Shown one piece after another: positions 3,099 to 6,248 of a stretch of 6,301 bases of DNA. The stretch covers positions 1 through 6,301 of the forward strand of contig JAHFAK010000090.1 of the NCBI GenBank assembly GCA_023250585.1, in the 5' to 3' direction. How positions within the stretch are numbered: the stretch's first letter is position 1; every line of letters begins with the position of its first letter. The notes beneath the pieces are model-generated. The model was not told the origin of the DNA and did not search any database. It saw nothing but the letters and a program-made list of their open reading frames with translations. The stretch is from Deltaproteobacteria bacterium (GTDB taxonomy: Bacteria > Bdellovibrionota_F > JAHFAK01). Made by a program: the position numbers and the translations under genes.

Positions 3099-3108
3099 TG
3101 AGGTACCT

Positions 3109-3642
3109 ATGAAGATCCAAAAATATATAATTATACTTTTATTCTTGTATTGCGTAGCTACTACTGCATACGCCCAGCGAGAAAAAGACTCAAGTCTTGA
3201 GGACACCTATAATCTCAGCGAAGCAGTTTTGGTAGTAAATCTTAAGAGCATTCAAGAGGTTGATAGAGTATCACTTAGTAAACATCAACCATTTATGACT
3301 TATACGTTTCAGGTCGTTGATGTTGTGGATAGTAAAAAACATAGATTAAAAAAAGATGACGAGATTACGTATTCTCATGCTAAGTATTTGAAGTTTAGGT
3401 TACATAAACTCCGTGAAAAATTACAAGAAAATAAAATACTCCTCATTTTTGTAGGAAAGGTTGCCGGAAGCGCTGTTGTTCTCAAATCGCAGGATACTGT
3501 TTTTGAAGTTATACCAAATAAACAAGGAATATTGGTTCTTAAAGATCCGGCCGAGTTTCAGCGTGTATTTAATAGTGAGCTTACCCGCATTCCTGAGTTA
3601 AAAGAAAAAATTAAAGCCTTTACCCATAAGAAAGATACATAA
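3109..3642 (+). CDS. Small exported protein, probable partner of the adjacent metalloprotease
   Basis: This 177-residue product begins with a Sec signal peptide: MKIQK, a hydrophobic core to about residue 17, and cleavage after AYA (20-22). The mature domain is rich in beta strands: EAVLVVNLKSI (38-48), then TYTFQVVDVVDS (65-76) leading to DDEITYS, and NKILLIFVGKV (108-118). The order of a 'carrier' strand, a 'TYTF.V.DV' strand and a 'LLIFVG' strand resembles small OB-like/NTR-like exported domains, but it lacks the N-terminal Cys of TIMP inhibitors and I cannot name the family. Mature residues contain no cysteine. TGAGGT at 3099-3104 is a strong, well-spaced ribosome binding site that fixes the start. 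The stop is one base from the ATG of the metalloprotease gene, so the two are very probably co-translated. An inhibitor, chaperone or scaffold for the protease is an inference from this pairing only. Confidence 0.85.
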   Translation: MKIQKYIIILLFLYCVATTAYAQREKDSSLEDTYNLSEAVLVVNLKSIQEVDRVSLSKHQPFMTYTFQVVDVVDSKKHRLKKDDEITYSHAKYLKFRLHKLREKLQENKILLIFVGKVAGSAVVLKSQDTVFEVIPNKQGILVLKDPAEFQRVFNSELTRIPELKEKIKAFTHKKDT

Positions 3643-3643
3643 A

Positions 3644-5359
3644 ATGAAAAAATATATAGGTATAGCAGCATTATTTTTTTGCATTAATACAAGTTCAAGT
3701 TTTGCATTTAACCGTCTCGATGATACCGGAAATAAAATCGTTCGTGGAGGCTATTGGGGAGTTTCCACCTTTGAAATTTATATTGATTCCGATGGTTCTA
3801 TCCCTGCTGTACCTGATCCAGAATCAGTGATTCAAGCTTCTTTTGATGAATGGAGTACGGTGAGTACAAGTTTTCTTGAGTTTTCCCTCAAAGGTAAAGC
3901 GAGCCGTGAAGAAGCAGAAAAAGCAGGGACGTCTATTCCGTTTTTTATTTATTTAGATACTGACGGTTCTATTACTGAAGAGCAAACAGGAATACAAAAT
4001 GGGCAAGGTATTTTAGGTATGGCCTTTCCTTTTGCTGCGAGTGATAGCACGACGGGTGAATATATTGATTCAATTATCGTTCTGAATGGAGCTACCATTT
4101 CAAATGAAACAGAAATGAGAACTACGTTAACACATGAACTTGGTCATTTTTTTGGTCTCGATCACTCAACTATTTTTGTTGATGGAGTCTATGTTCCTCT
4201 GATGTATCCCTGGCAAGATGATTCCCAAGAAACTCTTACGCAGGATGAAATTTCTGGCTTAAGCACGATGTATCCTAATAGTTCATTCACCCAAGAATAT
4301 GGCGCAATTAAGGGAACCGTTACGTTTGCTGATGGAGCACCAATATTTGGTGCAGACGTTGTGGCTATTGATGCCAAAACCTTGTTGCCTGTGGTGAGTA
4401 CGCCAGTTGGATTTCCTGCTTGTTTTGGCGACGAGTTTATTCAAAGTCCGGATTCATTTATGCTGACGGGGCTACCTGAAGGAGATTACTATATCAAAGT
4501 GCAAAGTTATCCGACGTTTGGAGGAATGTCTGGCTCAACGGTTTTTTTAATTGAAGATGAATATATCGCTGATAGTGGATCAGGAGTGGGTGCAGGAGAC
4601 TTCCTTAATTTTGTTACTGGTTTCCCAACACGATATTATCCTAACAAATCAAATATAAATAATGCGACGCTGATTTCGGTAAAAAAGGGAGAAGTGTCAA
4701 AAGATATTGCTATTACTCTTCCCTTTACTGATGATCCATCTGCTGTCTTTACTATCTATCATGATAATCCTTCTGATCTTGAAGTAATTATTGGCATTGG
4801 TGCAAGTACCAATGATTTTAAATTTTCAAAAACCATTCCAGTTTCGGATGAAGATGGGGATCATATTATTTCACAGGAAGTAGATTTATCAGGGGCGAAA
4901 TCTCTCTTGCCACCGACGACCACAAATAAAGTTTTTATTTTAACACGAGATGGAGAGAATAATAGCTTAAATGGAGCTCTTCTTAATTTTTCAATCTATG
5001 TGAATAAAAAACTCTATGTAGCAAAAGTAGCTTCGAATAATTCATTTATTGGTTTTACGAATAAAAATATTTACAATGCGGTTTCAATCGATGGATCAAG
5101 AACTTTTTCAACTGAGAGTTTTGATAAAACATTGGGTTTTGATGCCATTTGTGTGACCGAAAAAGGTGTAGTCGATAAAGAGGGAATTTTTACGCCAGAT
5201 ACGAGTAGTACCACTGGAGATGCTACATCGACGACTGAATCAGATTCAAAGAGTGGAGGATGTCTTCTCGTTCTTGGATCAGACGTTTATTCTATGCTGG
5301 CTCTGCTTTTTGTGCTTATATTATTTTTTGCCATGAGATTTTCATCACGAAGGAATTAA
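3644..5359 (+). CDS. Matrixin-family zinc metalloprotease, exported and C-terminally anchored
   Basis: This 571-residue protein has a signal peptide with likely cleavage after SFA (19-21). The catalytic domain follows directly (about 35-212): GGYWGVSTFEIYID, a helix with SFDEW (66-70), then the zinc site HELGHFFGLDH (164-174) with three His ligands and catalytic E165, and the Met-turn PLMYP (185-189). This HExxHxxGxxH plus Met-turn arrangement defines metzincins, and the compact domain fits the matrixin (M10A-like) group. No Cys-switch propeptide is present. Residues 221-286 (GAIKGTV to EGDYYIKV) look like a carboxypeptidase-regulatory/CnaB-type beta domain, and further beta-rich sequence runs to about 505. 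A Thr/Ser/Asp linker (518-536), SGGC (537-540), a membrane helix (about 541-564) and FSSRRN finish the protein, giving surface or membrane attachment. It lies one base after its small exported neighbour. The substrate is unknown. Confidence 0.94.
   Translation: MKKYIGIAALFFCINTSSSFAFNRLDDTGNKIVRGGYWGVSTFEIYIDSDGSIPAVPDPESVIQASFDEWSTVSTSFLEFSLKGKASREEAEKAGTSIPFFIYLDTDGSITEEQTGIQNGQGILGMAFPFAASDSTTGEYIDSIIVLNGATISNETEMRTTLTHELGHFFGLDHSTIFVDGVYVPLMYPWQDDSQETLTQDEISGLSTMYPNSSFTQEYGAIKGTVTFADGAPIFGADVVAIDAKTLLPVVSTPVGFPACFGDEFIQSPDSFMLTGLPEGDYYIKVQSYPTFGGMSGSTVFLIEDEYIADSGSGVGAGDFLNFVTGFPTRYYPNKSNINNATLISVKKGEVSKDIAITLPFTDDPSAVFTIYHDNPSDLEVIIGIGASTNDFKFSKTIPVSDEDGDHIISQEVDLSGAKSLLPPTTTNKVFILTRDGENNSLNGALLNFSIYVNKKLYVAKVASNNSFIGFTNKNIYNAVSIDGSRTFSTESFDKTLGFDAICVTEKGVVDKEGIFTPDTSSTTGDATSTTESDSKSGGCLLVLGSDVYSMLALLFVLILFFAMRFSSRRN
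5252..5356 (+). other. C-terminal tripartite sorting/anchor signal (SGGC, membrane helix, Arg tail)
   Basis: The last 35 residues of the metalloprotease have three parts: SGGC, a hydrophobic helix of about 24 residues, and a short basic end (RFSSRRN). A low-complexity Thr/Ser/Asp linker precedes them. This is the design of protein-sorting tails such as MYXO-CTERM and Synergist-CTERM, where a small motif with an invariant Cys next to Gly precedes the helix and the tail is processed by a myxosortase or rhombosortase-like intramembrane protease. A plain C-terminal membrane anchor would look similar, but the GGC at the helix edge argues for sorting. Confidence 0.6.
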
Positions 5360-5366
5360 TATCACG

Positions 5367-6248
5367 ATGACGAAACGTATTTTAGTTATTGAGCACGATC
5401 GTTCATTTTTCAATCGTATCCGCGATTTTTTCTCACCTGAGCTTCAGTGTGTCTTTGCTGATACAAGACAGGAAGCATTAAGCCTTCTCCAAAATAAAAA
5501 GTTTGATATAATTATTTTAAGCGCCGAATTGCATGAGGTGAGTGGGTATCTTTTATGTAAAACGATTAAAGAGAATACTTTATTTCAATCTATTCCTTTA
5601 ATTATTGTTTCTGAAGCTTCCGATGCTGCCGTGACATTTGAACAACATAAGAAACTAAAATTTCATGCAGATGCATATGTAGAAAAAAAAGTATCCAATG
5701 ACTCTCTACTTAAGATAATGTATTCTTTTATACCCAGTCTTGAACATGCTGAAAAAATGCCAGAAATAAAAGAATCCATAAAAGATCTCGAACAAGAACT
5801 TGTTCAACAAAAGAAAGTCAATGAAATGCTTTTGAGAAAACTCAATGAGTATCGGGAAGAGTGTAGTTTTTTAAGAAAAAAGGTTAACCGGGTTGATGAA
5901 CAATTAGAGATTTATAGTCCCAAAAAATCTATTGTCAGATTCCGTGATCATTTCAAATCTCATGATGACGCTCTTTTAGAACTTGAGAAAAAAGATCGAG
6001 AGATACAAAACCTCTTTGATACAGTTACGTCATTACGAGATGAGATGAAAAAATCTAAAGAAACAGTAAGATCCGAAACAGAAGTTCGTGAGACTCAACA
6101 TAAACAAGTACTAGACCAGCTAGAATTGGATTATAAAAATAAATTAGAAAAGTTTGAAGAACGAGAGAGAAAGTTTCGTGAGATTCAAAAGAAATATCGT
6201 GAAGCGACCGAAGAGTTTTTTGATAAAGTTGACGAGCTAAGGAAATAA
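5367..6248 (+). CDS. Pseudo-receiver domain protein with long C-terminal coiled coil
   Basis: Residues 3-122 of this 293-residue cytoplasmic protein have the CheY-like receiver pattern: KRILVIEHD (3-11), a helix, FDIIILSAELHEVSG (46-60), IPLIIVSEAS (76-85) and ADAYVEKK (101-108). Key positions have changed. The acidic pair reads E9-H10, the phospho-acceptor Asp is replaced by S52, and the Pro after the conserved Lys (K107) is Lys. Aspartyl phosphorylation is therefore unlikely and the domain probably works as a binding module. Residues about 128-182 and 203-293 are highly charged, Leu-spaced coiled coil (DLEQELVQQKKVNEMLLRKL is a typical stretch), broken by a linker (183-202). No output DNA-binding or enzymatic domain is present. 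The layout recalls AglZ and FrzS, motility scaffolds of Myxococcus, although it is much shorter than AglZ. AAGGA at 5350-5354 serves the start, seven bases after the protease stop. Confidence 0.9.
   Translation: MTKRILVIEHDRSFFNRIRDFFSPELQCVFADTRQEALSLLQNKKFDIIILSAELHEVSGYLLCKTIKENTLFQSIPLIIVSEASDAAVTFEQHKKLKFHADAYVEKKVSNDSLLKIMYSFIPSLEHAEKMPEIKESIKDLEQELVQQKKVNEMLLRKLNEYREECSFLRKKVNRVDEQLEIYSPKKSIVRFRDHFKSHDDALLELEKKDREIQNLFDTVTSLRDEMKKSKETVRSETEVRETQHKQVLDQLELDYKNKLEKFEERERKFREIQKKYREATEEFFDKVDELRK

Follow-up and report, generated by a model that had tools for sequence, protein, structure and literature searches.

The small exported protein encoded immediately upstream of a matrixin gene in the DNA analyzed here appears to represent an unnamed and widespread family of exported proteins with a predicted NTR/TIMP fold. 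This family is tied to secreted metzincins, mostly matrixins, and its members are likely the cognate inhibitors, or gatekeepers, of the adjacent proteases. We assign this reading as a whole a probability of somewhat above one half (about 0.57).

Organization of the Window and Characteristics of the Two Genes

The window, i.e., the entire stretch of 6,301 nucleotides that was analyzed, contains an apparent operon consisting of obgE (identified from its own sequence, without a family scan), a gene for an exported protein, rsfS, the partner gene P0001, the matrixin gene P0002 and a response regulator. The features of the two genes of main interest are as follows.

3100..3104, + strand: Shine-Dalgarno sequence GAGGT of the partner gene, 4 nt 5' of the first ATG (from the sequence)
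3109..3642, + strand: partner gene P0001, encoding a 177-aa exported protein of predicted NTR/TIMP fold, putative divergent member of the matrixin-companion family (from the ORF, family HMM, AF2 and Foldseek/VIA)
3109..3174, + strand: predicted signal peptide of P0001, residues 1-22, cleavage AYA/Q (from the sequence; the AxA motif aligns with the family)
3175..3540, + strand: predicted OB-barrel (NTR/TIMP-like) domain of P0001, comprising a helix (8-14) and strands, mature residues to 122 (from AF2 secondary structure)
3643..3643, no strand: one-base intergenic gap between P0001 and P0002 (from the sequence; no clear Shine-Dalgarno ahead of the protease)
3644..5359, + strand: matrixin gene P0002, 571 aa, peptidase family M10 (from Pfam PF00413, and karilysin and MMPs in the PDB)
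3644..3706, + strand: predicted signal peptide of P0002, residues 1-21 (from the sequence)
3707..4282, + strand: matrixin catalytic domain of P0002, without a prodomain (from Pfam and PDB matches)
4133..4165, + strand: zinc site HELGHFFGLDH of P0002 (H164, E165, H168, H174; from the sequence)
4202..4204, + strand: Met-turn methionine M187 of P0002 (from the sequence)
5252..5356, + strand: C-terminal GGC, transmembrane segment and basic tail of P0002, of the surface-sorting type (from the sequence)

The first-pass annotation of this DNA had described a small exported gene with a strong ribosome binding site, located one base upstream of a matrixin that lacks a propeptide, and this description agrees with the positions of the two reading frames and of the GAGGT sequence listed above. 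A comparable Shine-Dalgarno sequence was not seen at the start of P0002 in AAGAAAGATACATAAAATG, and the translation of P0002 is therefore probably coupled to that of P0001. The signal peptide of P0001 (LLFLYCVATTAYAQ) contains no lipobox of the kind expected for the lipoproteins known as potempins, and the mature protein has no Cys residue and thus neither the N-terminal CxC motif nor the disulfides of the TIMP type. In searches of Pfam and NCBIfam, P0001 did not match any family.

The assignment of P0002 to peptidase family M10 is based upon its match to the Pfam Peptidase_M10 model (PF00413; E = 2.9e-8, 34.2 bits compared to a gathering cut-off of 24) and upon the presence of an intact HExxHxxGxxH motif and Met-turn. 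Its closest solved structure in a PDB search (query 27-205) was karilysin. The catalytic domain begins only a few residues past the signal peptide and no Cys-switch prodomain is present, as the Pfam and karilysin matches also indicate; the annotation was thus correct on this point, as well as on the zinc ligands H164, H168 and H174. The C-terminal arrangement of GGC, a transmembrane segment and a basic tail is found at the end of all four matrixins of this genome (P0002 and those at L142, L143, and L052), and two CPBP/Rce1-like membrane proteases (G000:C42 and C164) are candidate sorting enzymes for these tails. A sorting tail that includes a Cys residue is likewise present at the C-terminus of the matrixins of the MXAN_2677/2678 family of myxosortase-dependent metalloproteases (NF041905); membership of P0002 in NF041905 was rejected, as its match is weak (E 1.2e-7) and its score of 31 bits is far under the cut-off of 250.

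Several other features of the window may be noted. A HigB-like toxin gene (PF05015, E 5e-7) and a gene resembling an HTH antitoxin overlap each other (244-892), and 5' of them is a truncated frame (2-133) that contains a PIN-like DAIHLATA motif. The exported protein encoded between obgE and rsfS (2030-2761, 243 aa) has no Pfam match, and the frame at 5367-6248 encodes a response-regulator receiver domain and, after it, an extended region resembling a coiled coil; the Pfam scan recognized no output domain in this frame.

Association of the Partner Family with Matrixins

Searches with P0002 identified three further matrixins in the same genome, in addition to others from other genomes. A small exported gene is present directly upstream of all four matrixins of this genome, separated from them by a 1-base gap or overlapping them by 4 bases, and the same arrangement was observed beside matrixins in several other genomes. 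A first partner profile (A2), built from six partners, was then run together with PF00413 against 386 genomes. It produced 92 matches in 65 of these genomes, and one half of them (46 matches, from 36 genomes) immediately preceded a PF00413 matrixin gene in the same orientation, compared to approximately 0.15 same-strand pairs that random placement would give. Since some of the proteases were located in overlapping long frames and were initially scored as absent, their presence was rescored by the position of the motif, counting those up to 2.5 kb downstream in the same orientation.

A location of the small protein mostly away from protease genes had been named in the annotation as evidence against its proposal, and a survey of homologues beside proteases had been suggested; this survey gave the opposite outcome. 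By motif position, 63 of 91 partner loci in the 386 genomes have an HExxH protease downstream (53 of these 63 with the strict motif and 12 in one open frame), while for 10 more a strict zincin is located upstream; for seven of the loci that lack a downstream motif, the available sequence stops close to the edge of the contig. A second set of 44 loci came from a collection of named genomes, which was scanned independently with partner sequences as the only seeds. A protease was found downstream in 39 of these and upstream in three, and one locus was cut by the end of its contig. The second set spans the Myxococcota, Planctomycetota, Eisenbacteria, Latescibacterota, Gemmatimonadota, Lentisphaerae, Oligoflexia, and Pedosphaera, with the pairing represented in at least seven phyla. 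A strict zincin motif on the opposite strand was not found at any of the 91 or 44 loci. The pairing is hence not a local accident. Of the 72 clear matrixins (E < 1e-9), 33, i.e., fewer than half, have a partner detected by A2, which is a narrow profile that misses P0001 itself.

The two domains are also found in a single polypeptide. In at least 11 loci of the 386-genome set, a signal peptide, the partner and the catalytic domain are present in one frame, in this order, and no hydrophobic segment is located between the partner and the catalytic domain. Apparent C-terminal fusions are seen at L123 and L141, also with no hydrophobic segment between the domains. Those at L082, L122, L137, and L186 were not counted, because a hydrophobic segment separates their domains; they may be polyproteins or adjacent genes. 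The frame at L186 (4062-5402) encodes a matrixin with a Cys-TM-RRR tail, followed by a signal-peptide-like segment and a partner domain, and it is possibly a polyprotein that is cut by sorting and signal peptidases.

Sequence Characteristics of the Family and the Position of P0001

The partner profile matched no family in Pfam or NCBIfam, and the Pfam TIMP and NTR models were unmatched by P0001, its three paralogues, one relative and 33 family members. A weak match of one of the paralogues to an IseA inhibitor (E 1e-4, below the cut-off) was set aside, as its siblings had no such match. A single-sequence search with P0001 of 58 other genomes revealed no homologue, because P0001 is too divergent, and the family was reached through the neighbors of the matrixins. 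Divergence within this genome is greater among the partners than among their proteases (18% identity versus 43% for the closest protease pair). P0001 shows weak similarity to the family HMM (15.5 bits, compared to a maximum of 9.7 among 10,000 shuffles) and a pairwise z of 4.6 (standard deviations above shuffles) to two partner paralogues from the same genome; it also shares with the family a signal peptide and a location upstream of a zincin. Taken by sequence alone, these similarities weakly indicate that P0001 is a divergent member of the matrixin-companion family.

The mature N-terminus of the family is conserved, with T, S or A in the first position followed mostly by T, so that most members start with T-T or T-V. 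Other peaks of conservation are a glycine pair after strand C (G63-G64, in the C-D connector) and a G..QGK loop before strand F, whose conserved residues (G101 and Q104-G105-K106) lie in the E-F loop. In MMP-TIMP complexes, TIMP binds the protease by means of its N-terminus, C-D connector and E-F loop, and by topology the conserved residues of the family are predicted to fall at this same binding edge. P0001 possesses neither the conserved N-terminal T-T nor the PGG motif, its mature form starting with QREKDSS, and a zinc-ligating N-terminus is therefore less certain for P0001 than for the family; this start may not reach the zinc in the manner seen in TIMP.

Predicted Fold of the Partner Proteins

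The structure of a typical member, the mature partner from Citreicoccus, was modeled with AlphaFold2 using an alignment of 33 sequences. The model is an OB barrel (pLDDT 91.3, pTM 0.85). When it was compared by Foldseek with 350,542 PDB chains, the top 13 matches were all agrin NtA, TIMP-1 or TIMP-2 (E 6.6e-4 to 1e-2), and the NTR domain of PCOLCE and TIMP-3 appeared lower in the results. VIA-align ranked N-TIMP-3 highest, tied with NtA; the N-TIMP-3 alignment covers 117 of 121 residues (model 1-162 on chain 1-121), with a Z of 10.9 and an rmsd of 2.6. Residue 1 of the model, the predicted mature N-terminus, superposes on residue 1 (Cys1) of several TIMP structures. The model for P0001, which was based upon 17 homologues, has lower scores (pLDDT 73, pTM 0.72), although its elements follow each other as in the Citreicoccus model; its Foldseek and VIA matches were the NTR (C345C) domains of complement C3, C4 and C5, and TIMP-2. 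As the homologues used for P0001 were a subset picked for agreement with an expected alignment, this model provides supporting evidence that is not independent. Based upon these models, a TIMP/NTR three-dimensional fold is predicted for both the partner family and P0001. The NTR fold does not by itself indicate a function, since the NTR domains of complement and agrin are not protease inhibitors.

Comparison with Known Systems

A close genetic parallel is seen in Tannerella, where the KLIKK proteases, including the matrixin karilysin, are directly preceded by the genes for potempins (PMC7296668; PMC4404884), small lipoproteins that specifically inhibit the co-encoded protease (PMC7296668). The arrangement described here shares with the PotA-karilysin pair a small exported protein directly upstream of a secreted protease, and karilysin is also the best PDB match of P0002. 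In contrast to the potempins, which are Tannerella lipoproteins, the partner family is present in multiple phyla and is sometimes fused to the protease, and P0001 has an ordinary signal peptide. Work by Ksiazek in 2023 is said to have described some potempins as OB-fold barrels. A potempin chain was not found when the partner profile was searched against PDB sequences at E up to 10, nor among the Foldseek and VIA matches listed, in which the nearest folds are TIMP/NTR. An MMP-like type VI effector paired with a potempin-A-like immunity protein has also been reported (PMC13340143).

The likeness to TIMP consists of the predicted fold, which aligns with almost all of the N-terminal domain at Z values of up to 10.9, the N-terminus in register with Cys1 in the typical partner and an M10 protease as the counterpart. 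TIMP itself has been described as arising in the eumetazoan ancestor (PMC10755359). Unlike TIMP, the partner family lacks CxC and disulfides and, as indicated above, is not recognized by the Pfam TIMP and NTR models; so far as its sequence is concerned, the partner is not a TIMP. Matches to Pfam TIMP (PF00965) were obtained for only two of the 386 genomes, at loci without a matrixin. These bacterial proteins (L250 and L251) carry an N-terminal CSC motif and no metalloprotease gene adjoins theirs.

In Listeria, the mtz-tim locus encodes a metzincin paired with a TIMP-like lipoprotein, which is cleaved by the metzincin, and its authors knew of no other TIMP-like protein from bacteria (PMC8235301). 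Both systems combine a metzincin gene with an adjoining gene for a secreted protein that is predicted to be TIMP-like. However, mtz-tim is phage-derived and Gram-positive, and its partner is a lipoprotein encoded downstream that is cleaved rather than shown to inhibit.

Proposed Function and Alternative Explanations

We propose that the partner would be translated first and exported separately from the matrixin, and that an edge of its OB barrel, formed by the free N-terminus, the C-D connector and the E-F loop, would cover the active-site cleft of the protease. The propeptide-less and surface-anchored matrixin would thereby stay inactive for as long as the partner is neither displaced nor degraded. 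The annotation had likewise suggested an inhibitor or folding partner supplied in trans, as a remedy for the missing propeptide. The TIMP/NTR fold, the N-terminal fusions and the precedent of the potempins fit the inhibitor that it envisaged; its argument from the propeptide is not supported. Most of the matrixins for which no partner was detected have no long prodomain either, and the missing propeptide thus does not explain the pairing. The distance from the signal core to HExxH has a median of 155 aa in the unpaired matrixins compared to 147-172 aa in the paired ones (Mann-Whitney p = 0.35), by a crude measure in which 20 of 57 were unmeasurable; the idea of the partner as a propeptide substitute specific to paired matrixins is not supported by this comparison.

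The upstream position of the partner gene, its probable translational coupling and the N-terminal fusions would be expected as well of a foldase-type prodomain, so that the partner might act as a propeptide-like chaperone in trans, aiding the folding of the catalytic domain or its survival during export, with any inhibition being incidental. We consider this unlikely, since many matrixins have neither a detected partner nor a propeptide and their catalytic domain apparently folds unaided, and since the predicted TIMP-like fold and the conserved edge of the barrel point to binding at the cleft. The partner could instead be a substrate of the protease or a releasable effector, as has been proposed for Tim of Listeria, which its metzincin would cut and set free; cleavage of Tim by Mtz has been reported, as has a cell-wall phenotype that requires both proteins (PMC8235301). 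Tim, however, is a lipoprotein encoded downstream, whereas the partner gene described here is upstream, P0001 has no lipobox and some partners are fused at the N-terminus of the protease, making this explanation rather improbable.

The presence of NtA and complement NTR domains among the nearest folds would also be consistent with an accessory module for targeting or adhesion, by which the partner holds the protease at the surface or to a ligand, in the manner of agrin NtA and laminin. As the matrixin already possesses its own GGC-transmembrane sorting tail, and as such a role leaves the conserved mature N-terminus of the family unexplained, we regard it as quite doubtful. Lastly, the strong divergence of P0001, for which the single-sequence search of other genomes was empty, could mean that it is an unrelated exported protein whose location in the window is incidental. 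This is very improbable given that the same pairing is seen for each of the four matrixins in this genome, that P0001 exceeds the shuffle controls both with the HMM and in pairwise comparison and that the same NTR fold is predicted for it.

Returning to the proposed inhibitor, a more specific form of this proposal is that the pair constitutes a bacterial counterpart of the MMP-TIMP system. A Cys-free partner of TIMP fold would then regulate matrixins of many phyla, its free N-terminus ligating the zinc as Cys1 of TIMP does, and the pairing would be older than, or independent of, the animals. We put this forward tentatively, as a possibility with the odds against it.

Significance of the Partner Family

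The tissue-remodeling MMPs and the TIMPs that inhibit them are a textbook example of paired regulation. The identification of a family of predicted TIMP fold that accompanies matrixins in at least seven phyla of bacteria, and is sometimes fused to them, gives an unnamed family a testable function and points to a likely means by which many secreted bacterial proteases are controlled. It also raises the question of how the MMP-TIMP pairing originated, i.e., by inheritance, by transfer or by two separate inventions. In addition, the family may supply small, disulfide-free scaffolds that bind MMPs. The recurrent pairing suggests that bacteria restrain such proteases with a TIMP-like partner.
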